Of a DNA stretch of 64,000 nt, positions 29,186-40,394 are shown piece after piece. A program made the position numbers and the translations under genes. The notes beneath the pieces were generated by a model. The model worked only from the letters and a program-made list of their open reading frames with translations, was not told the origin of the DNA and did not search any database. Source of the DNA: Caldilineaceae bacterium (GTDB lineage Bacteria > Chloroflexota > Anaerolineae > Caldilineales > Caldilineaceae); NCBI GenBank assembly GCA_026708085.1, contig JAPOVP010000049.1:186001-250000 (forward strand), in the 5' to 3' direction. Within the stretch, counting starts at the first letter, position 1; each line of letters starts with the position of its first letter.

Positions 29186-29350
29186 CGGCGAAACCGGTTT
29201 GGGCTACGATTACCGAGCCGGACGCAAGCCAGCTCACGACCGCCGTTTGCAGTCGAGTGCGAAGTCGCTCTCTCTTACTTGCAGTAGGACGCGTGGGGTA
29301 GAATGCGGTAGTTGGCGCATTTCGACAAGAACGCAGCAGGAGAAAAGATC

Positions 29351-29560
29351 ATGGCAGAAGATGCCGTTCAGCAGCAGTCAGCTGTAGCCGAGAAAAATGC
29401 ACAGGATTCTGAGCAAGATTCATCTGAAACTCAGCAAGAGAGGCGCCCCAATGCCTTCGCGTTTAGTGGTATTTTGCTTGGTGGTTGGGCGGCTCTGATG
29501 ATTGCGTTTACTCTGATCGCCGTAATCGCCATGTCAGTTGTAGGAATGGTGGCTGGCTAA
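29351..29560 (+). CDS. Small single-pass membrane protein
   Basis: ATG 29351 is preceded by AGGAGAAAAGATC, a good ribosome-binding site; the open frame 13 codons upstream lacks one. The 69-residue product has a charged, Gln/Glu-rich N-terminal half (AEDAVQQQSAVAEKNAQDSE) and one hydrophobic helix at the C-terminus (GILLGGWAALMIAFTLIAVIAMSVVGMVAG, written here as two overlapping halves of a single segment around residues 39-69). It resembles no family I know. A C-terminal membrane tail with an acidic cytoplasmic head suggests a regulatory or assembly role, but nothing nearby identifies a partner. Confidence 0.7.
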   Translation: MAEDAVQQQSAVAEKNAQDSEQDSSETQQERRPNAFAFSGILLGGWAALMIAFTLIAVIAMSVVGMVAG

Positions 29561-29838
29561 CTCCCTGCCGCCCAGAACCGTGCCTGCACTGAACTGAAGC
29601 CAATCTACGCGGTTGCGGATTACGCAAGTGCTCCTTCACACACACCCAATTAGGGCCTGGACAGTCCAACCTTCTTTTTCCTCCACCCTAAAGCCCAAGT
29701 TGATATGAGCCAAACCTTGGCTCCTTGCACCCAACCGGCATGGGCAAGCGATCTCGCGTCCAAGAGTTCCCCTCCAAAAGGTCTCGTTTACCTTTACCTC
29801 AGGCATGGTCCCATCGATCCCCAAGCAGCAAACAAACT

Positions 29839-29867
29839 TTGCACTCAGGTAAAACTGCTGCTATAAT
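29839..29867 (+). promoter_or_regulatory. Strong promoter of a structured leader/ncRNA
   Basis: TTGCAC (29839-29844), 17 bases, then a perfect TATAAT (29862-29867). The start would be near 29874. No ORF with a ribosome-binding site follows until the gene at 30328, so the transcript begins with about 450 untranslated bases. Confidence 0.75.
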
Positions 29868-29873
29868 CCCGGC

Positions 29874-30012
29874 GCACGCATGATGGTGCGTGCCACTCTC
29901 CACTTAAGACATGTCGAATTTGGCTGAATGGGAGAACCTGACGGAAGGGGTGTGACCTGAACATACCCTGGCGTTGTGTGGCGATGTAAGACAGATAGGG
30001 TGGGAGTGCTCC
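29874..30012 (+). ncRNA. Candidate structured RNA, rod-like with 5' hairpin
   Basis: Immediately after the promoter there is a perfect hairpin, GCACGCA (29874-29880) with TGCGTGC (29887-29893). A closing helix follows: CACTCTCCAC (29894-29903) pairs with GTGGGAGTG (30000-30008) with one bulge and one G-U. Inside it, CTTA (29903-29906) faces TAAG (29987-29990), and a terminal hairpin forms from GGGTGTG (29948-29954) and CATACCC (29962-29968) with one G-U. The result is a bulged rod of about 115 bases. I could not match it to 6S, SRP, RNase P or tmRNA motifs. It may be a separate ncRNA or the first part of the leader of the gene at 30328. Confidence 0.45.
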
Positions 30013-30142
30013 AAAGATACTGACAAGGCTATCTAGCCAATTCAAACGGAGGATAAGAACCCAATAGCACAACCTTGCGGGCGGAATTCTGGAACGTACT
30101 CCGAGTTTAGTTCGCAGAATGTTACAGATCTCGCAGGTTTTA

Positions 30143-30162
30143 CGGCAGGTTCACCTCTGCCG
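30143..30162 (+). promoter_or_regulatory. Hairpin in the structured leader
   Basis: CGGCAG (30143-30148) pairs perfectly with CTGCCG (30157-30162), leaving an 8-base loop. It ends three bases before the interlocked hairpins and may stack on them. Confidence 0.45.
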
Positions 30163-30164
30163 CA

Positions 30165-30198
30165 GCATGTGTCTTCGGGCCACATGCCTCGCCCGAAG
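30165..30198 (+). promoter_or_regulatory. Interlocked perfect hairpins: candidate pseudoknot or switch
   Basis: GCATGTG (30165-30171) pairs with CACATGC (30181-30187). CTTCGGGC (30173-30180) in its loop pairs with GCCCGAAG (30191-30198) downstream. Both stems are perfect, 7 and 8 bp. They can coexist as an H-type pseudoknot with no base between the stacked stems and linkers of 1 and 3 bases, or they exclude each other as two alternative hairpins. The element lies 130 bases before the start codon at 30328. Tight linkers make the switch reading at least as likely as a full pseudoknot. Confidence 0.55.
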
Positions 30199-30327
30199 TC
30201 ATGCGTATACTCAAGCACTGCTTAAAAGAGTCTTCGCAATCCACATTCGCCGTTTGATCCACAACTAAGCGAAGCGAAGGCGCCCACAATAGCGTTCACG
30301 CAGCAATTAGGGAGCAGTCTACCTGCA

Positions 30328-32319
30328 ATGGCGAAAAAAATCTACGCATACGGAATGGACGGATTCGTCACTCCCATGATGAAGTACTTCGCATCGGAGG
30401 GCTGCCTTCCTAATTTCAGCCGCTTGCTCAGGGAGGGTACAGTCAACGAGACCTATCCCTCCTTCCCCGTCTGGACACCGACCAACTGGGCAACTCTTTC
30501 CACCGGCGCCCACACCGGCACACACAGCGTCCCAACGTGGCAGACCGTAATTGAGCGAAAGTCAGGCGCTGGCGAGAAGGACGTTTCAGTTAGCAGTTTT
30601 GACGGCCGTGCCAACAACGCCGAACGCATCTGGAACTCTTTGGAGCGGGCCGGCCTCAAGAGCGTCGCCGTACACTACCCGGGGGCCCATCCTTCAGGTG
30701 TGGAAATCGGCTATGTTGTCGACGGTTTCGGCGCGCCAGGACACAATAGCACGGAATTTGAAGTAGCTGCGGCCCAGGCCTACACAACTGATCCCTCCAA
30801 GGCCAGCGATGTTGCCATGGCTCACGACGGTTCAGCCATCCAAGGACCTCGCAGCGTTGAGCCCATCGAGTCGCTCGCTGCTGCCGAGGGCTGGACCAAT
30901 CTGCCGGACAGTGCCTCGACTCCGCTGGCGACAACCTTTTCGGTCAACGCGCGTCTGGGTGGAGACGCCAACCACTTTCACCTGCTTGCCGTCGACAGAA
31001 CGGGTAGTGGCTACGACCGCGTTCTGATTTGTCGCAGTCTCGACGCCGGTGAGATTGTGGCCGAGGCTAACCTCGGCGGTTGGAGTGACTGGGCTATCCA
31101 GGACTTTCTGATCGACGGTCAAGCTCAGGAAGCCGCGGTCCGTTTCAAGTTGCTAGAATTGGCCCCTGATGGCAGTTCGTTGAAACTCTACCGAACACAA
31201 GTTACCTATACCAACGGCTTTACGTACGGCGATTCTGAATTGGAAGCCGAACTCATTCGCCGATTTGGTCCCTATCAGGAACATGCCTCGATGACACCCT
31301 ATACCTCAGGCATGACCGAATTCGATACAGCTCTTGAAGAGTGCGAATACCAGGGCCTCTGGTTTGCCAAGGTGGCAAATTACATGCTCCACGAGAGAGA
31401 TTGCTCCTACTTCACCTGCCACTGGCACCTGTATGACTATCTCAATCACATTCACCTGGCTGACGCGGACCCTGCCTGTCCCGGTTTCAATCCGGACACC
31501 AAAGAGAAGTATCTGGACTACTTCCGCCGCACCTACCAGGTCGGCGACCGCGTCCTGGGCCTGATGTACGAGGCGGCCGACAGGGCCAACCAAGACGGTG
31601 ATGAAGTTTACGTTGGCATCATCTCCGATCATGGTGCCTACCCTGACGTCCGTATCGCTAACCTTCGCCAGTTCCTTTGCGACGAGGGCTTCCTCGTTCT
31701 GCAGCAAGGTGGGGAAGATGCGATCGCCAAGGACCTGGACCCTCATTCAGACGAGATTGATTGGGACAGGACCAAAGCCTATCTCGCAAGGCGCGGGTTC
31801 GACATTACTATCAACGCCGATCCCGGACCGAAATTCGACCAGATCGAACGCGAGTTGCTCACCGCCCTCCGCACCTGGGTTGACGAAGAAACTGGCAACA
31901 CCGTTGTCGCTGTCGCCCTGCCCAAACGCGACGCCTATCTGCTGGGGCAGTGGGGAGATGAGTGCGGTGACGTCATCTTCGCCTGGGACCACGACTATGT
32001 AAGCGGATACTACACGCAATGGCTCGGAATCGAAGGCGGGGGAAATGTCGGCGCACCTCTTGTATACGGCGCCCATCATGGCGGCTTCATTCCAACCACA
32101 AACGGCTTTTCATCCACTTTCGGCTCGTTTTTCCTCGACGGACCGGGCCTAAAGAAGGGATATGAACGCCCTGTTGACCGGCTGGGCTACATTCATGCCG
32201 TCGACGTCGTCCCGACGTTTTGCCACATCCTTGGCGTCGATCCTCCCGCGCAAGCCCAGGGTACAGTAGTGCGCGATCTCTATGAGGGACATGAAATGGT
32301 CAGGGAGAGGCAGAAATGA
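30328..32319 (+). CDS. Alkaline-phosphatase-superfamily phosphodiesterase (type I phosphodiesterase/nucleotide pyrophosphatase-like)
   Basis: The 663-residue protein has the superfamily metal site and nucleophile: YGMDGF near the start with a metal-binding Asp, PTNWATLSTGAHTGTH with the nucleophilic Thr, and the later metal ligands in GIISDHGAYPD and YGAHHGGF. No signal peptide is present, so it acts in the cytoplasm unless exported otherwise. Such enzymes cleave phosphodiester, pyrophosphate or phosphonate bonds. It overlaps the first permease gene by four bases (ATGA) and heads a sugar-uptake operon, which suggests it processes an imported phosphorylated or phosphodiester-linked sugar. GGGAG 13 bases upstream is the probable ribosome-binding site. 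Confidence 0.85.
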   Translation: MAKKIYAYGMDGFVTPMMKYFASEGCLPNFSRLLREGTVNETYPSFPVWTPTNWATLSTGAHTGTHSVPTWQTVIERKSGAGEKDVSVSSFDGRANNAERIWNSLERAGLKSVAVHYPGAHPSGVEIGYVVDGFGAPGHNSTEFEVAAAQAYTTDPSKASDVAMAHDGSAIQGPRSVEPIESLAAAEGWTNLPDSASTPLATTFSVNARLGGDANHFHLLAVDRTGSGYDRVLICRSLDAGEIVAEANLGGWSDWAIQDFLIDGQAQEAAVRFKLLELAPDGSSLKLYRTQVTYTNGFTYGDSELEAELIRRFGPYQEHASMTPYTSGMTEFDTALEECEYQGLWFAKVANYMLHERDCSYFTCHWHLYDYLNHIHLADADPACPGFNPDTKEKYLDYFRRTYQVGDRVLGLMYEAADRANQDGDEVYVGIISDHGAYPDVRIANLRQFLCDEGFLVLQQGGEDAIAKDLDPHSDEIDWDRTKAYLARRGFDITINADPGPKFDQIERELLTALRTWVDEETGNTVVAVALPKRDAYLLGQWGDECGDVIFAWDHDYVSGYYTQWLGIEGGGNVGAPLVYGAHHGGFIPTTNGFSSTFGSFFLDGPGLKKGYERPVDRLGYIHAVDVVPTFCHILGVDPPAQAQGTVVRDLYEGHEMVRERQK

Positions 32320-33266
32320 CGACGAAAGCGTTAGCGGGCGCACGGATACCACTTCCCAGCTGGACGAGGAACCTCCGCGCCAAAGAGGCAATCGCCGGTT
32401 ACATTTTTCTGTCGCCATGGCTGCTGGGCATAATTCTCTTTATCATCGGTCCAATGATGACCTCCGGCTTCCTCAGCTTCACCCGCTACGACATCGTCAA
32501 CCCACCCGAATTTGTCGGCCTGAAGAACTTCATCGAGATTTTCACAAAAGACCGGCTCTTCTGGCCCTCGATGATGCTTACCTTCCGCTACGCGTTGATA
32601 GTCGTACCACTTTCTCTTATTGGGGCCCTCGCGGCTGCAATGCTCCTTAATCAGGCACTTCTGGGAACGACATGGTTTCGTACCTTCTTTTTCCTGCCCC
32701 ACCTCACTCCCATCGTCGCAGCCGCCGTCCTCTGGGGCTGGATATTCAACGCTGACGTAGGGCCGATCAACCATTGGATTCGTACCATCACCGGCAGCGA
32801 CAACGCCCCGGGATGGTTCCGAGACCCGGACTGGGCGATGACCGGCCTGATAATTATGGCAATGTGGGGTGCAATCGGCGGCAACACCATGCTGATCTTC
32901 CTGGCGGGCCTGCAAGGGGTTCCCCAGGAGCTGTACGATGCCGCGGTCGTCGACGGCGCAGGCTTATGGGCCAAGTTTCGAAACGTGACCCTTCCGATGC
33001 TGACGCCGACGATCTTCTTCAATATGGTTCTTGGAATCATCGGGGCACTAAGAGTATTTGCGGCCGCGTACGTGGCCACCCAGGGCGGGCCGGCATACTC
33101 TACCTGGTTTTACGCATTGCACATCTACACGCGCGCATTCCAGTACTTTGAAATGGGCTATGCTTCGGCTCTGGCTTGGATCTTCTTCTTCGTATTGTTC
33201 GTCTTTACCTACGTTCAGTTCAGACAGTCGCGACGATGGGTCTATTACGCAGGGGAGGTGGACTGA
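32316..33266 (+). CDS. Sugar ABC transporter permease 1A (MalF/UgpA type)
   Basis: Inner-membrane subunit of a carbohydrate importer, 316 residues with about six helices, starting with the first at AGYIFLSPWLLGIILFIIG. The EAA loop that docks the ATPase reads LYDAAVVDGAGLWAKFRNVT near 215. It overlaps the phosphodiesterase gene by four bases and the next permease by one base, so three genes are tightly coupled. The cognate ATPase gene is not in the window; in many bacteria one MsmK-like ATPase serves several such transporters. Confidence 0.93.
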   Translation: MTTKALAGARIPLPSWTRNLRAKEAIAGYIFLSPWLLGIILFIIGPMMTSGFLSFTRYDIVNPPEFVGLKNFIEIFTKDRLFWPSMMLTFRYALIVVPLSLIGALAAAMLLNQALLGTTWFRTFFFLPHLTPIVAAAVLWGWIFNADVGPINHWIRTITGSDNAPGWFRDPDWAMTGLIIMAMWGAIGGNTMLIFLAGLQGVPQELYDAAVVDGAGLWAKFRNVTLPMLTPTIFFNMVLGIIGALRVFAAAYVATQGGPAYSTWFYALHIYTRAFQYFEMGYASALAWIFFFVLFVFTYVQFRQSRRWVYYAGEVD

Positions 33267-34192
33267 TGGCGGGCGAAGCAATCGCAACGGGCAGAAAGCA
33301 GACCGGGAGTGGATTGAACCAAGCCGGGATCTTCCAGTCAGCCTCATTCCAGCGCGCAATCGGCCGAGGAATTCTCTATCTGATCGCCGTTTCCAGTTCG
33401 GCCGTATTCATGTTCCCCTTTGTTTGGACAGTACTCTCCTCTCTGAAGAGAGGCGGTGAGTTGTTCAGGTTTCCCCCTACCTGGCTTCCGGAGGTTCCAC
33501 AGTTTCAAAACTATCCGAAAGTCTTCGAAATCGTTTCCTGGGCCACATGGACTTGGAACTCGACCTTCGTGGCGATTGTTTCAACTTTCGGGGCCGTTCT
33601 GACCGCCGCGCTCGTCGGCTACTCATTTGCCCGTTTTCGATACCCCGCCCGCGACGTACTGTTCATCATCACTCTCAGCACAATGATGCTGCCTGTAGAA
33701 GTCACCCTGATACCCCTCTACCTCATGTTTGCAAAGATTGGATGGCTGGACTCCTACAGACCGCTGATCATCCCTTCATTTTTCGGAGGCAGCGCATTCC
33801 TCATCTTTCTCATGCGCCAGTTCTTTATGAGCATTCCCATCGATCTTGACGAAGCAGCACGAATAGACGGCGCTAACTATCTGCGAATCTTCTGGCAGAT
33901 TCTGATGCCTCTTTCCATTCCTGTTACGGCAACTGCGGCCGTACTGACCTTCATGGCACAGTGGAATGAGTTTCTTCAGCCATTTATCTTTCTCAACACG
34001 AAGTCCAAATACACGTTGGCGATCGGCATTCGCTATTTCCAGGCCGTCGCCGGATTTGCCGATGACACTGAGCCAAAATACCACCTTCTCATGGCTGCCA
34101 GTGTCATGATGACTGCACCCATTATTGTCATCTTTTTCCTTGCGCAGCGTTATCTGGTCCAGGGGATTGTGATGTCCGGTATCAAAGGATAG
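33266..34192 (+). CDS. Sugar ABC transporter permease 1B (MalG/UgpE type)
   Basis: I start at ATG 33266, which uses the last base of the preceding stop codon and has GGGAGG nine bases upstream. The 308-residue protein has six hydrophobic segments and the EAA loop DEAARIDGANYLRIFWQIL near 212. It is the expected partner of permease 1A. The binding-protein genes follow after a 61-base gap. Confidence 0.93.
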   Translation: MAGEAIATGRKQTGSGLNQAGIFQSASFQRAIGRGILYLIAVSSSAVFMFPFVWTVLSSLKRGGELFRFPPTWLPEVPQFQNYPKVFEIVSWATWTWNSTFVAIVSTFGAVLTAALVGYSFARFRYPARDVLFIITLSTMMLPVEVTLIPLYLMFAKIGWLDSYRPLIIPSFFGGSAFLIFLMRQFFMSIPIDLDEAARIDGANYLRIFWQILMPLSIPVTATAAVLTFMAQWNEFLQPFIFLNTKSKYTLAIGIRYFQAVAGFADDTEPKYHLLMAASVMMTAPIIVIFFLAQRYLVQGIVMSGIKG

Positions 34193-34253
34193 CGCAGTTC
34201 TCAGAAATCTGGTTGTCGTAGAACGTTCAGTTATTCCCAAGGAGGAGTCAACC

Positions 34254-35585
34254 ATGCTTAAGAAGAATGTGAGTCGCCGCCAGTTCCTGGCAGGGTCAAT
34301 GGCAGCAACGGGAGCTCTGGCTCTGTCTGCCTGCGTGCCCGCTGCTCCCACAGCAGGTGAGGGTGGGGAGTCGATGGAGGCTTCGACAGAACCCGTCACC
34401 GTCCTATTCCACACGCGGCTTGGAACCCATGCCGACTGGCACAAGAGCCGCAAGGACCTGTTCGAAGAGCAGAATCCCGGCATTCTACTCGAAATCGACG
34501 AGTTGCCGGGCAATGAAATGTATCCCAAGATTTACGCTCTTTCAGCCTCCGGCACGGTGGGCGATGTAGTCTGGACCTATCTCAACAATCCGCCGGAACA
34601 CAAGGCCAAGGGCGTCCTGGTCCCCTTGGACGATATCGTCGCCGCCAAAAACTTCGATCTCTCCCAATTCTGGGATTCCTTGCTCGAAGCCGTCACGCTC
34701 GACGGTGAACTGCACGCCATTCCCAACCACGGCCATTACGGCACGACCGCCTACTATCACAACAAGACCCTCATCGAAGCATCAGGCGCAGAGAACCCCA
34801 ACCCCGACTGGACTGTCGATGACTACATCACTATAGGGCAAGCGGTCACGGATCCGCCCGAGGTCTGGGGCGTCCGTAGCTTCGGTACAGGCCAGGAGCA
34901 CATCCCCTCCTACTTGCGCATCTTCGGCGGCGATGCAATCAACGAGGAGGGGACACAATCCTTGCTGGGCGAGGAGGAGTCCATCGCGGGCCTGCGCTGG
35001 CTCTACGACCTTCAGCACACACATCAGATTGATCCCTGCCAGTGCGGCGACGAAGTTGCCAATAACTACGTCGCAGGTACTGTAGGCATCTTTAACACGA
35101 CGACGGGTTGGATCGGCCGCTTGAATAACATGAAGAACGACGGCGATCTGGAGTTCGATTGGGATGCTGTAGTCGGCCCGATTGGACCGACTGGCTTGCG
35201 CGGTTCACAAGTGTCGGCTGCTGCTTTTGGCATCACCGGCAACTCCGAACATCCCTCGGAAGCCTTCCAGGTTCTGGACTTCTATTCGACCAAAGAGGAC
35301 GGCATCGAGCATGTATTCTTCGGCGCTGGCAGTCCTGGTGGCCGCAAGGACGTTTGGGAGAGCGATGAGCTCAACTCCATCCACCCGATTTTCCGTCAGC
35401 ACCAGGAAATCTATCCAGAAGGCCCGCGCAAGTGGCATCGCCCTGCCAACGCCCGTACGTCTGAGTTTGTCAATACGATGAACAACAATCTGCAGGCAAT
35501 CTGGACGCAGGCAGTGGAGTTCGAAGAGGGTGTAGAGCAGACCCATCTCCTCGTCCAGGAGATTTTGGACAAGGATCCGGTCTGA
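34254..35585 (+). CDS. Sugar-binding lipoprotein 1 (ABC transporter)
   Basis: Extracytoplasmic solute-binding protein, 443 residues, preceded by AAGGAGG. The N-terminus has a twin-arginine motif SRRQFL (7-12), a hydrophobic stretch and a lipobox LSAC with Cys27, so it is exported folded and lipid-anchored. The mature part follows the extracellular solute-binding family 1 pattern. It is very similar along its length to the next gene, with identical blocks such as PGNEMYPKIYALSASGTVGD and SAAAFGITGNS; the pair is a tandem duplication. The ligand is unknown. Confidence 0.93.
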   Translation: MLKKNVSRRQFLAGSMAATGALALSACVPAAPTAGEGGESMEASTEPVTVLFHTRLGTHADWHKSRKDLFEEQNPGILLEIDELPGNEMYPKIYALSASGTVGDVVWTYLNNPPEHKAKGVLVPLDDIVAAKNFDLSQFWDSLLEAVTLDGELHAIPNHGHYGTTAYYHNKTLIEASGAENPNPDWTVDDYITIGQAVTDPPEVWGVRSFGTGQEHIPSYLRIFGGDAINEEGTQSLLGEEESIAGLRWLYDLQHTHQIDPCQCGDEVANNYVAGTVGIFNTTTGWIGRLNNMKNDGDLEFDWDAVVGPIGPTGLRGSQVSAAAFGITGNSEHPSEAFQVLDFYSTKEDGIEHVFFGAGSPGGRKDVWESDELNSIHPIFRQHQEIYPEGPRKWHRPANARTSEFVNTMNNNLQAIWTQAVEFEEGVEQTHLLVQEILDKDPV

Positions 35586-35608
35586 CCCTGATTTGAACTC
35601 GCATGGAC

Positions 35609-35641
35609 CGCGGCTCAGGTAGGGCCGGAACCTGAGCCGCG
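35609..35641 (+). terminator. Long stem-loop after binding protein 1
   Basis: CGCGGCTCAGGT (35609-35620) pairs perfectly over 12 bp with ACCTGAGCCGCG (35630-35641), with a 9-base loop; three more pairs form beyond a bulge. A T7 run at 35661-35667 lies 20 bases on. It may be a partial terminator or an mRNA-stabilising structure. Confidence 0.65.
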
Positions 35642-35691
35642 TCCTATCAAGGCCCTTCACTTTTTTTCGTCACATCCATCAGGAGAGAACC

Positions 35692-37020
35692 ATGAACAAT
35701 CAAGTTTCGCGACGTTCATTCTTGCAGGGAGCCCTGGCCGCATCTGCAGTTGCGCTGTCGGCGTGCGTGCCCGCTGCCGCCCCCGCAGGCGATGGGGATG
35801 GGGATATGGCCCCATCCGATGAACCGATCACGCTCCTCTTCCACACTCGATTGGGAACACACGCCGACTGGCACGTCAGCCGTAAAGACCTCTTTGAGGA
35901 GCAGAACCCCGGCCTGATTCTTGAGTTTGACGAGCTCCCCGGCAATGAGATGTACCCCAAGATCTACGCCCTGTCCGCCTCAGGGACCGTCGGCGACGTT
36001 GTTTGGACTTACCTTAACAACCCGCCGGAACACAAAGCAAAGGGAGTGCTGGTCCCGCTGGATGACATTGTGGCAGCCAAAGACTTTGACCTTTCGCCAT
36101 TCTGGGACTCCTTGATTGCTGCTCTCACCCTGAATGGGGAACTGCATGCGATCCCCAACCACGGTCACTTCGGTACGACTGCTTATTACATTAACAGGAA
36201 CCTGATCGAGGAGTCTGGCGCCGAAGTCCCCTCTCCTGATTGGACAACCGATGATGTGGTTACAATCGGACAGGCCATCACCGCTCCCCCTGAAGTTTGG
36301 GGCGTCCGGGCGATGGGAGTCGGGCAGGAGCACATCCCCTCCTACCTGCGCATCTTTGGTGGCGACGCGATCAACGAGGAAGGGACGAAATCACTACTGG
36401 ACCAGGAAGAGTCTATCGCGGGCCTCCAATGGCTCTATGACCTTCGCTTCACCCACGGTGTCGATCCCTGCCTCTGCAGCAACGAGACCTTTAACAACTA
36501 TGTCGCAGGCACGGTCGGGGTCTACAACTGGACGACTGGCTTTGTCGGGCGCTGGAACAACCAGAAGGAGTCTGGCGACATCGCCTTTGACTGGGACGTT
36601 CTCGTTGGACCCGTAGGTCCGACCGGTCTCAGAGGATCGCAGGTGTCCGCTGCCGCCTTTGGCATTACAGGCAACTCCAAGCATCCGTCTGAAGCATTCC
36701 AGATTCTCGACTTCTATTCCACGAAGGAGGACGGAATCGAGCATGTTCTGTTTGGCGCCGGCAGCCCAGGCGGCCGCGCCGACGTTTGGGACAGCGATGA
36801 GCTCTTCGCCGTCCACCCTATCTTCCGCCAGCACATCGCTACATACCCCGATGGACCGCGCAACTGGCATCGACCGGCAAACGCACGCACGCTGGAGTTC
36901 GTTGACACGCTCAACAACAATCTACAGGCTGTGTGGACAGAGGTAACCACATTTGATGAGGGTGTCGAGCAGACACACCTCCTCGTACAGGAAGTCCTGG
37001 ACAAGGAGCCTCTGGCATAA
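35692..37020 (+). CDS. Sugar-binding lipoprotein 2, duplicate of protein 1
   Basis: 442 residues, with AGGAGAG before the ATG. Tat motif SRRSFL (6-11), lipobox LSAC with Cys25. By eye roughly three quarters of positions match protein 1, with colinear sequence and few gaps, so duplication is evident. The differences cluster in the signal region, in the NKTLIEASGAENPNPDW-like segment and around the CQCGDE/CLCSNE pair, suggesting some divergence of ligand preference. Both copies retain two Cys three residues apart in DPCxC. The intergenic stem-loops of both copies also resemble each other. Confidence 0.93.
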   Translation: MNNQVSRRSFLQGALAASAVALSACVPAAAPAGDGDGDMAPSDEPITLLFHTRLGTHADWHVSRKDLFEEQNPGLILEFDELPGNEMYPKIYALSASGTVGDVVWTYLNNPPEHKAKGVLVPLDDIVAAKDFDLSPFWDSLIAALTLNGELHAIPNHGHFGTTAYYINRNLIEESGAEVPSPDWTTDDVVTIGQAITAPPEVWGVRAMGVGQEHIPSYLRIFGGDAINEEGTKSLLDQEESIAGLQWLYDLRFTHGVDPCLCSNETFNNYVAGTVGVYNWTTGFVGRWNNQKESGDIAFDWDVLVGPVGPTGLRGSQVSAAAFGITGNSKHPSEAFQILDFYSTKEDGIEHVLFGAGSPGGRADVWDSDELFAVHPIFRQHIATYPDGPRNWHRPANARTLEFVDTLNNNLQAVWTEVTTFDEGVEQTHLLVQEVLDKEPLA

Positions 37021-37042
37021 CTCTGAATTCTGGCAGTATCGG

Positions 37043-37077
37043 CCGCGGCTCAGGATCTGACGGAACCTGGGCCGCGG
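37043..37077 (+). terminator. Long stem-loop after binding protein 2
   Basis: CCGCGGCTCAGG (37043-37054) pairs with CCTGGGCCGCGG (37066-37077), 12 bp with one G-U. It is related in sequence to the stem-loop after binding protein 1 and was probably duplicated with it. Confidence 0.6.
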
Positions 37078-37125
37078 TCCTCCAGTAATTCCACTTCTTT
37101 CCGTCAAAACCTTTCGGAGGAAACA

Positions 37126-38469
37126 ATGAGAGATCTCGTATCACGACGTTCATTCTTGCAAGGCGCACTCGCCGTCTCCGCCGGCGCTCTTGCTGCATGT
37201 GTCGCCCCGGCCGCCCCAGAGGGCGATATGGCGGACGAAGGTGCCGCGATGGAGCCCGTCCACCTGCGCTGGGACACGTTCCGCGGCATTGGCAGCGGCT
37301 GGAACGAAGAACGCATGGAAACCTTTACAGAAATGCATCCCGATGTAACGATCGAGCTGCGACCGCTCGCCGGCTCCGGCCAGCAAGACAACTACGCCAA
37401 GATGTACGCGGCCCAAGCCGCCGGCGACCTCGGTGAAGTCATCGCCTTTGATCCTTCCCACTACCACTTCTGGCGGGCGATCAACAAGAACATTATCATG
37501 CCGATTGATGAGCTTGTCGCCGCCGACGGTACTGACCTCGGTCAGTGGTTCGAACACTTCATGGGCCTGCAGTACTACCAGGGGCAACTCTATGGCTTCC
37601 CCAGTTGGGGTTGGGCCGGATTCGACACGCTGGTTACCAATGCAGTCCATTTCGAGGAGGCTGGACTGGACGTCCCCGATCCGGTCGGTCGCGACGTATC
37701 AATTGACACGATTAGAGAGTGGGCTCATTCCTTCTACGTGGAAGGGGAACGCTTTGGACTCAATATCAGCCACAATGAGGCGACGGTCGTAGTCTTATGT
37801 CGCCTATTTGGCAGCTCGCTTATCAACGAGGAAGGCACCCAGTGCTTGCTACTCGACGACCCGAACGCGACTGAGGCGATGAGGTGGGCATATGATCTTG
37901 GCGTAGTCGACCAGGTGCTTCCCGCGCCAGGAGATATCGACAACGCCGGCGGGGCTCTCGTCGCCGGCCTACTGACCTTGAACTGGTGCGGATCGCTTTG
38001 CGTGCGCAATTTTAACAACCAGATCGAGGATGAGAGCGTAGCCAAGGCCTCACAGATCCTGTTCCCGGCTCGCGAAGACGGCCGTTTCCCCTCGCAGCTT
38101 CGCGGCGGCACCTGGAACCTGCGCACCGACCAGGACCACGCCGACGTCGGCTATCAGTTCCTTCTGCACATTGCCGGACACGACGGTAGCCTCAGCTTCA
38201 ACCTGGTAGCGCGCAACTTCGCGATGGTGCGGCCCGACGTAGTCGACTCTCTCATCGAAGATGACCCGATCCACGAATGGTTCATCTCCAGCCTCGAGAA
38301 CGGCATTCCCGCACACGCGCCGGCCAATTCTCGCGGGCGCGAGTATACGTCCGCAGTACAGCAGTGGACAGACCTTCTCCTCGACCCCAACCAGCCCGTT
38401 GAGTTCGAACAGGGTTTGCAGGACCTGAACGACAACATTCAGGCTGTCCTGGACATGGAACCAGCCTGA
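37126..38469 (+). CDS. Sugar-binding lipoprotein 3 (ABC transporter)
   Basis: 447 residues, preceded by CGGAGGAAAC. Tat motif SRRSFL (7-12), lipobox LAAC with Cys25. The signal region is nearly the same as that of protein 2, but the mature domain is clearly different (VHLRWDTFRGIGSGWNEER, then AKMYAAQAAGDLGEV). It is followed by its own permease pair, so it likely belongs to the second transporter, while proteins 1 and 2 serve the first. It ends with the same type of Gln-rich C-terminal segment (EFEQGLQDLNDNIQAVLD). Confidence 0.92.
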   Translation: MRDLVSRRSFLQGALAVSAGALAACVAPAAPEGDMADEGAAMEPVHLRWDTFRGIGSGWNEERMETFTEMHPDVTIELRPLAGSGQQDNYAKMYAAQAAGDLGEVIAFDPSHYHFWRAINKNIIMPIDELVAADGTDLGQWFEHFMGLQYYQGQLYGFPSWGWAGFDTLVTNAVHFEEAGLDVPDPVGRDVSIDTIREWAHSFYVEGERFGLNISHNEATVVVLCRLFGSSLINEEGTQCLLLDDPNATEAMRWAYDLGVVDQVLPAPGDIDNAGGALVAGLLTLNWCGSLCVRNFNNQIEDESVAKASQILFPAREDGRFPSQLRGGTWNLRTDQDHADVGYQFLLHIAGHDGSLSFNLVARNFAMVRPDVVDSLIEDDPIHEWFISSLENGIPAHAPANSRGREYTSAVQQWTDLLLDPNQPVEFEQGLQDLNDNIQAVLDMEPA

Positions 38470-38487
38470 TCCTGTCAGGAAACTAAT

Positions 38488-38524
38488 GAGCAGTGGGCAG
38501 GGGGTAACAGTCTGCTCACTGCTC
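38488..38524 (+). terminator. Long stem-loop after binding protein 3
   Basis: GAGCAGTGGGCAG (38488-38500) pairs with CTGCTCACTGCTC (38512-38524), 13 bp with one G-U and an 11-base loop. Its sequence differs from the two upstream stem-loops but its position is equivalent. The permease gene starts 13 bases on, so full termination here would silence the transporter. Confidence 0.6.
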
Positions 38525-38537
38525 TCATATCCTGGAG

Positions 38538-39488
38538 TTGAATATGGCGACCCTGGCCAGCCGCTTGAATCTGTCCAACGTAGCAGAAGCGCTGACGACA
38601 TCGCGACAGCGGCGGGAAAATGTCTATGGTTATCTCTTTCTAACGCCTTGGCTTCTCGGCTTCTTCGGGCTGTTTATCGGCCCCGGCCTATTCTCGCTCT
38701 ACCTTAGCTTCACAAAATACGACGTGCTCAGTGCCCCAGAGTGGATCGGCCTTGACAACTACATCAAGATGTTTTTCGAAGATCCCCTTTTCTACACTTC
38801 TCTCGGGCGCACCTTTTACTACGCCGGGGTTGGCGTCCCTCTTGGTGTCGTAGGCTCGATGTTTCTTGCCATCCTGCTTAACGCCAAGCTGCGGGGCCTG
38901 GCCACCTATCGCACGCTCTTTTTCATGCCGTCACTGGTACCGATCGTGGCCTCGGTTGTCCTTTGGAAGTGGCTGCTCCATGCTGATTTCGGAATTATCA
39001 ATCAGTGGCTGGTCGACCTAGGTTGGTCCGACCCACCTGGCTGGTTCGGTGACCGACGCTGGGCGATTCCTTCGCTTATAGTGATGGGCTTGTGGCAAGG
39101 ACTGGGAGGCACGCGCATGATCATCTTTCTGGCCGGCCTCCAAGGAATTCCTGAATCGCTATACGAGGCCGCCTCGATCGATGGAGCATCACCGATTCAC
39201 AAGCTGCGCCACGTAACGATACCTCTGTTGACACCTACAATCTTCTTCAACATGGTACTTGGAATCATTGGCGGTTTGCAGGTTTTCACCGCGGCGTTTG
39301 TGGCTACCGAGGGCGGCCCTGGTTTCGCCACGACATTCTACAGCCTTCACCTCTATCGTCACGCCTTCGACTATTGGAACATGGGTTATGCCGCTTCGCT
39401 GGCCTGGTTCTTCGCCTTCGTTATCGTGTCGCTTACGATTTGGCAGTTACGACTCTCACGCCGCTGGGTATTCTATTACGGGAGCTAG
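38538..39488 (+). CDS. Sugar ABC transporter permease 2A
   Basis: 316 residues, six predicted helices, first at GYLFLTPWLLGFFGLFIGPG. The EAA loop reads LYEAASIDGASPIHKLRHVT. It parallels permease 1A throughout (for example the shared TPTIFFNMVLGIIGGLQVF), so the two transporters derive from one ancestor. GGAG lies close upstream of the ATG, inside the distal part of the stem-loop region. Confidence 0.92.
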   Translation: MNMATLASRLNLSNVAEALTTSRQRRENVYGYLFLTPWLLGFFGLFIGPGLFSLYLSFTKYDVLSAPEWIGLDNYIKMFFEDPLFYTSLGRTFYYAGVGVPLGVVGSMFLAILLNAKLRGLATYRTLFFMPSLVPIVASVVLWKWLLHADFGIINQWLVDLGWSDPPGWFGDRRWAIPSLIVMGLWQGLGGTRMIIFLAGLQGIPESLYEAASIDGASPIHKLRHVTIPLLTPTIFFNMVLGIIGGLQVFTAAFVATEGGPGFATTFYSLHLYRHAFDYWNMGYAASLAWFFAFVIVSLTIWQLRLSRRWVFYYGS

Positions 39489-39494
39489 AACAAG

Positions 39495-40394
39495 ATGGCC
39501 GCAACGATCGAAAGACTGCCCAGCACAGAACTCCGCAGTGACGTCTACCGACGCGGACGGAATCGGATTCAGAGGGCCGTGACCTATATCCTACTTACTG
39601 CTGCTGCCTTGATGTTTGCCTTCCCGCTCTTCTGGACGGTGTCAAGTTCTCTGCAGACCTGGAAGGAACTTCGTTCCTTTGAACCGCACCTTCTCCCCGC
39701 CATACCTCAGTGGGGAAACTATGCAATGGTCTTCAGTTCGGTGCCTTTCGCTCGCTGGATGGGGAACAGCTTTCTGATTACGGCAATCACTATCCCCGGG
39801 GTCATTATCACAGGTTCTCTGACTGCCTACTCCTTTGCCCGATTCAACTACATCGGTAAGGAGATCTGGTTTGTACTCATGTTGGGAACGATGATGATTC
39901 CGTCGCAGGTGACGTTGATCCCCCAGTACGTACTCTTCTTCAATCTGAAACTGATCAACACCTACGTTCCCCTCACCATTGGCTCCTGGCTAGGCGGCGG
40001 GGCTTTCATGATCTTTTTGCTGCGCCAGTTCATAATGTCTATTCCTCGAGATCTAGACGAGGCCGCCCTAATGGACGGCGCATCGCCCATACGCATTCTG
40101 TGGGGCGTCCTTTTGCCGCTAATGAAACCCGCGCTGACTACGGTCGCCATCCTTCAGTTCCTCGGAGACTGGAACGAGTTTTTCGGCCCCTTTATCTATC
40201 TCAATAAGGTCGATCTCTTTACGGCGGCCGTAGGCCTCCGTTTCTTCCAGAACATTCCCCTGGAGTCCAGGGACCCGCGCGATCATCTGCTGATGGCCGC
40301 CGCCGCCATAATGACCATCCCGGTCATCACCCTCTTCGCCGCCGCTCAACGGTATTTCATCCAAGGCGTTGTCCTCAGCGGCCTCAAGATTTGA
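39495..40394 (+). CDS. Sugar ABC transporter permease 2B
   Basis: 299 residues, MalG-type, six helices, EAA loop DEAALMDGASPIRILWGVL near 199. It begins six bases after permease 2A with GGAGC overlapping the 2A stop region. It closes the plus-strand operon; the following 519 bases hold no gene on either strand. No ATP-binding subunit accompanies either permease pair. Confidence 0.92.
   Translation: MAATIERLPSTELRSDVYRRGRNRIQRAVTYILLTAAALMFAFPLFWTVSSSLQTWKELRSFEPHLLPAIPQWGNYAMVFSSVPFARWMGNSFLITAITIPGVIITGSLTAYSFARFNYIGKEIWFVLMLGTMMIPSQVTLIPQYVLFFNLKLINTYVPLTIGSWLGGGAFMIFLLRQFIMSIPRDLDEAALMDGASPIRILWGVLLPLMKPALTTVAILQFLGDWNEFFGPFIYLNKVDLFTAAVGLRFFQNIPLESRDPRDHLLMAAAAIMTIPVITLFAAAQRYFIQGVVLSGLKI

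Follow-up and report, generated by a model that had tools for sequence, protein, structure and literature searches.

A putative structured, cis-acting leader RNA before a phosphodiesterase–sugar transporter operon in one genus of Caldilineaceae

The operon, its promoter and the length of the leader

The window, i.e. the whole 64,000-nt stretch of DNA analysed here, corresponds to positions 186001-250000 of contig C61 in the source genome G000. It carries an operon for a phosphodiesterase and a sugar ABC transporter, which is preceded by a leader of ~450 nt (29874-30327) lying between the promoter and the phosphodiesterase gene:

29312-29560: small membrane-protein gene, 5' of the promoter and leader
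29838-29867, plus strand: promoter, with -35 box TTTGCA (29838-29843), N18 spacer and extended -10 box TGCTATAAT containing TATAAT (29862-29867)
30328-32319, plus strand: operon gene 1, a type I phosphodiesterase/nucleotide pyrophosphatase family protein of 663 aa (PF01663, E = 1.1e-18)
32316-40394, plus strand: rest of the operon, with two UgpA/UgpE-like permease pairs and three sugar-type solute-binding proteins

The N-terminus of the phosphodiesterase, as read from its translation, shows no evident signal peptide, and the match of this protein to ENPP5 is weak. The closest solved relative of the operon's binding proteins is the arabino-oligosaccharide-binding protein 6rjy, while the predicted structures of the phosphodiesterase (pLDDT 60) and of the first binding protein (pLDDT 38) were too poor for use.

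TTTGCA-N18-TATAAT is the single promoter-like site within 29300-30700, and the full promoter motif has no second copy in the 6.2-Mb genome. The original prediction had described a perfect -10 box behind a 17-base spacer; the TATAAT stands, and its position recurs in relatives, but the spacer is 18 nt long with TTTGCA, the 17 nt resulting from a reading of TTGCAC at 29839. In 12 of the 14 species that carry the leader, the promoter ends 439-470 nt 5' of the start codon; L023 has a weaker version of the promoter (TACACT), and in L030, a deletion species with a shortened leader, the promoter is found at -255. From the -10 box to the ATG, 13 species show a spacing of 445-476 nt, and the leader itself is 435-466 nt long in 13 of the 14, even though the sequence of its middle is no longer recognisably similar between them. 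This near-constant length contrasts with the distance from the upstream gene to the promoter, which varies between ~205 and 580 nt (computed from gene and promoter positions), a contrast that we count in favour of a leader. It had been allowed that a separate promoter might lie right before the gene, and no second conserved site was seen there in the upstream regions of relatives. Nor did we find an intrinsic terminator in the leader region, or a conserved T-run in the leaders of relatives. In L030 (genome G007), ~210 nt of the leader have been naturally deleted, with the promoter and helices C and D (see below) still in line with the gene. Within the 261 nt upstream of that gene the promoter and 5' part are joined straight to helices C and D, making this species a ready-made natural mutant.

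As predicted from the sequence, the ~450 nt at 29874-30327 contain no credible conserved ORF, and the leaders of relatives share no conserved start codon with a ribosome site. Since none of 15 upstream regions holds a conserved uORF with start codon and ribosome site, the leader does not qualify as a leader-peptide attenuator. A GGAGG at -280 was considered as a ribosome site serving an ORF within the leader and ruled out, because a start codon does not follow it.

Helices of the leader and their comparative support

The following parts can be distinguished within the leader, which begins with a hairpin, passes through a fast-evolving middle and would end in a 3' core of four helices (A-D) ~30 nt before the ribosome-binding site:

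29874-29893, plus strand: 5' terminal hairpin GCACGCAU-GAUG-GUGCGUGC at the predicted transcript start (shuffle z -3.6 in the 5' window of the ten-sequence alignment)
29894-30047, plus strand: hypervariable middle, with length held, sequence identity at or below neutral, and weakly supported helices
30048-30052, plus strand: conserved GGAGG with no start codon after it, at -278 to -280 in 10 of 10 species of lineages a-d
30071-30139, plus strand: helix A, pairing 30071-30081 with 30130-30139, and its enclosed hairpin (compensatory changes, partner test, scan)
30143-30162, plus strand: helix B, a hairpin pairing 30143-30148 with 30157-30162, UCAC in the loop (partner test)
30165-30204, plus strand: helix C, with an outer part (30165-30169/30200-30204), an inner part (30173-30180/30191-30198) and CCUC in the loop (30187-30190)
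30230-30281, plus strand: helix D, pairing 30230-30237 with 30274-30281 (partner test, scan)
30310-30314, plus strand: invariant Shine-Dalgarno-like GGGAG, whose first base always lies 18 nt upstream of the start codon (13-nt spacer)

Folded as a single sequence, the leader reaches -149.3 kcal/mol (z -1.61, with 7 of 100 shuffles equally stable), and the fold stability of the lone sequence is thus ordinary, near chance and not special. The 'at least five stable helices' originally read from this one sequence are accordingly close to chance, but comparison reveals real helices, which are not necessarily the same ones. None of the 4227 families in Rfam 15 scored above its gathering score, and a search extended to E = 10 returned only two lncRNA matches at chance level, in keeping with the earlier failure to match any known riboswitch core.

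In an alignment of ten sequences, RNAalifold scores compared with column shuffles gave z values of -8.9, -8.6, -7.9 and -5.6 across the 3' half of the leader, and no signal by the same test in its middle. In alignment A1, 81% of cells were paired, vs 34-42% after the partners had been shifted by 1-3 columns. Covariation scored 0.204 vs 0.142 in shuffled alignments (0 of 500 shuffles reach it), to be read with the caveat that the structure was partly derived from the same alignment used for the covariation test. The compensatory changes in helix A include G-C/C-G and A-U/G-C/U-A replacements. In the ten main sequences G-U cells are twice as frequent as A-C cells (24 vs 12), which speaks for the sense strand being the RNA; across the full set of 13 the counts are practically equal (27 and 26).

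The RNAalifold consensus of 13 sequences is poor because the lineage of L025, L026 and L028 misaligns, and for this reason the helices were also tested without reliance on an alignment. This partner test compares how well the 5' strand of each species pairs with its own 3' strand and with that of another species. At the species level it gave 462/20000 for helix A, 5/20000 for B, 40/20000 for C and 7/20000 for D; for five lineages the corresponding values were 5/120, 1/120, 5/120 and 1/120. The four helices summed rank first of 120 with five lineages; the three segment pairs taken as controls reached no notable rank. An unguided scan of 196 window pairs, which amounts to many tests and was used only for agreement with the pre-defined helices, placed A (-258 x -204) first, C (-164 x -141) second and D (-102 x -55) fourth. 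It also yielded two candidate pairings in the middle of the leader (-395 x -327 and -335 x -212). L025, L026 and L028, the most divergent lineage, form A, C and D from quite different bases (A from ACUCGCC/GCGAGCC, D from CUGCCA/UGGCAG), and show no good B. The 5' terminal hairpin likewise keeps its form and not its sequence in lineages a and b.

The helices are thus kept by compensatory change in relatives, and in 14 of 14 copies the element lies between a promoter and the start codon of the same gene. Judged by these comparisons, the leader is a real RNA structure maintained in evolution, and the earlier prediction came through the possibility, raised with it, that its relatives might not conserve any helices. 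A few bases are conserved outside the stems: the CCUC of the C loop in 12 of 13 sequences, and, invariantly, the C of the B loop and the GGGAG, which starts at exactly -18 in 14 of 14 species.

In single folds the GGGAG is mostly paired, with partners that differ between lineages. Its sequestration by the CCUC of the C loop or by the GCACUGCUU linker looked attractive in single folds and RNAalifold, and fails the partner test: the two candidate helices rank 97/120 and 89/120, their own partner being no better than that of another lineage. We therefore make no claim of a Shine-Dalgarno switch to translation, and no expression platform was found in the form of a terminator/antiterminator or a co-evolving SD/anti-SD helix.

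Distribution, constraint and history

To follow the leader across genomes we used a covariance model, R1, which comprises helices B, C and D and the ribosome site. It finds one strong copy per genome in 14 of 17 genomes of the genus, always ending at the phosphodiesterase start; any other matches in these genomes are weak, short and gapped, with E values of about 0.005 or worse. No match at E <= 0.001 was obtained in 29 other genomes of the family, and the model does not match at distant phosphodiesterase homologues in other phyla and other Caldilineaceae. By this survey the leader RNA appears confined to one genus. The phosphodiesterase orthologue itself is present in 16 of the 17 species genomes, G011 being the one in which no close orthologue was found. 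In G013 the gene is present but lacks the leader, and no permeases can be recognised immediately after it. G004 has kept the permeases and a promoter (TTGCAA-N18-TATACT at -438) with an unrelated leader, and in both G004 and G013 only the last ~40 nt around the SD and ATG score with the leader model. The R1-free leader of G004 (L032/L056; 440 nt upstream of the gene) resembles a decayed fragment of a repeat-protein ORF and reads like cadherin-type repeats.

The closest carriers of the phosphodiesterase among relatives are metagenome-assembled Caldilineaceae (Chloroflexota). Homologues with 59-69% identity (L057-L091) occur in Latescibacterota, Poribacteria, Gemmatimonadota and other phyla, where the transporter of the leader operon is not beside the gene in the fetched DNA; for almost all of these homologues no operon transporter genes were found within the 3 kb fetched. 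The gene has likely spread across phyla.

In most pairs of species, identity is higher in helices B and C than at the gene's 4-fold degenerate sites (0.80 vs 0.69 for L018/L021; 0.87 vs 0.51 for L020/L027), and helix D is usually above them too. The middle mostly falls below the same sites (0.49 for L018/L021 and 0.45 for L020/L027), L027/L029 being an exception. Core sequence identity is 64% between L018 and L020, a special pair in that leader and gene have different histories. The leader is thus an RNA under constraint for length, in which a conserved 3' core follows a middle that is nearly unconstrained or structurally free.

A sharp mosaic boundary lies in the window at 30250-30400, at the junction of leader and gene. 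From ~30400 on, the operon of G000 is mostly 89-94% identical to those of G001 and G005, vs at most ~68% for the leader. Compared with G006 and G003, identity amounts to ~80-88% in the upstream aldo/keto reductase gene, 64-68% in the leader and ~90% in the phosphodiesterase; the permeases of G000 and G006 are ~80% identical. Grouped by identity, the leader of G000 goes with G006 and G003, while its genes go with G001 and G005 as well. The simplest reading is a recombination junction near the leader/gene boundary, which would make the leader native and the genes exchanged beneath it.

Possible modes of action and relation to known leader RNAs

We put at roughly 60% the probability that 29874-30327 is the structured, cis-acting 5' untranslated leader of the phosphodiesterase–sugar ABC transporter mRNA. 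The leader would be transcribed in one piece with the operon and may act in cis after transcription has started, on the access of ribosomes to the first gene, the lifetime of the mRNA or both, the trigger probably being a bound protein, a ligand or a physiological state. As no intrinsic terminator is present, attenuation of transcription is the less probable mode of action, and the leader most likely affects the translation or stability of the operon mRNA. Counting against this reading are the ordinary fold energy, the unsupported SD pairings, the restriction to one genus, and the two genomes, G013 and G004, that do without the leader. Of the riboswitch or other cis-acting RNA originally predicted, a structured cis-acting leader before the whole operon is borne out in 13-14 species by the conserved promoter, the constant length and position, and the compensated helices; the riboswitch is not, given the lack of a terminator or co-evolving SD helix and the single operon and genus. 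The more specific readings below are sub-readings whose confidences overlap with that of the main statement.

The best placed of them, possible but tentative, is that translation is blocked or promoted by a regulator bound to the A-D core, for which the phosphodiesterase or a general RNA-binding protein would be examples. The structure is held while the sequence drifts, the lineage range is narrow and there is one target, traits typical of lineage-specific protein-bound leaders such as those of ribosomal proteins. However, the leader showed no known protein-binding motif, Pfam gives no RNA-binding domain for the phosphodiesterase, and the differing histories of leader and gene in G000 argue against tight co-evolution with the product of the first gene. 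It is rather unlikely that the leader is a passive stabiliser or spacer, whose 5' hairpin and core would protect the mRNA end and keep the ribosome site open without regulation: the kept 5' hairpin, the constant length and the unconserved partners of the ribosome site would all suit such a role, but four compensated helices over ~200 nt exceed the need of simple end protection, and some congeners do without the leader.

We regard as distinctly doubtful a metabolite riboswitch, in which the loops of B and C (UCAC and CCUC) would contribute to a pocket that binds a sugar, a sugar phosphate or a phosphodiester, and a change in shape would free the ribosome site. The position in the 5' leader of a transport/catabolic operon fits, and the loops are base-conserved above conserved helices; however, the target is a single operon in a single genus, neither a coupled expression platform nor an Rfam match was found, and core sequence conservation is modest (the 64% of L018 vs L020), whereas the aptamer is usually the part of a leader that varies least. 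Harder to credit is the specific proposal that the 200-nt A-D core is a new riboswitch class of one Caldilineaceae genus, sensing the imported phospho-glycan or sugar and gating translation of the 10-kb operon. It is very improbable that the promoter at 29838 drives a trans-acting small RNA which is processed or ends short of the gene, to which it would be adjacent only incidentally: promoter and structure would equally suit a free RNA, but a terminator is absent, the element always adjoins the phosphodiesterase gene, the constrained block extends through the ribosome site to the ATG, and in L030, despite the deletion, the promoter and the 3' core still lead into the gene.

A cis-acting leader of this kind has parallels in several known systems. 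At ~450 nt it is longer than most orphan cis-regulatory motifs, from which it also differs in its hypervariable middle and in having no match in Rfam 15. The gene msiK, which encodes a transporter ATPase, is likewise preceded by a leader RNA tied to sugar ABC transport, although phylum and gene are others and neither sequence nor structure matches the present leader. This msiK motif (RF01747) of Actinobacteria is listed as certainly cis-regulatory, with its status as a riboswitch undecided (PMC2864571). Motifs commonly found upstream of coding regions have been assumed to lie in 5' UTRs and to be cis-regulatory (Weinberg et al., 2010; PMC2864571), and the orphan motifs of that type, discovered through comparative genomics, share with the leader the covarying helices upstream of one gene family, the narrow taxon and an effector that is not known. 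Metabolite riboswitches are alike in forming a 5' leader before a transport operon, but here no family matches and no expression platform was found. The leaders of ribosomal-protein operons, which are protein-bound and autoregulatory, share the conservation of structure over sequence, the restriction to a lineage and the single target operon; in the present case a phosphodiesterase and a transporter lie downstream, and the binding protein is putative.

A narrow search of the open literature by title and abstract returned nothing on such a leader in this group. While orphan leader RNAs as such are already known, this one, unusually long and fast-evolving, is apparently undescribed. It adds a leader RNA and a usable covariance model for a poorly studied genus in an uncultured Chloroflexota group, and illustrates clearly how an RNA can retain its length and helices although most of its sequence changes at the neutral rate or faster. 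Should its trigger be identified, the leader would reveal how uptake of what is apparently an oligosaccharide or phospho-sugar is regulated.

On the transport side, the three solute-binding-protein genes stand in tandem in the window (34254-38469). The first and second proteins are 78% identical and the third is 29% identical to the first; the first two genes are likely the product of a duplication.
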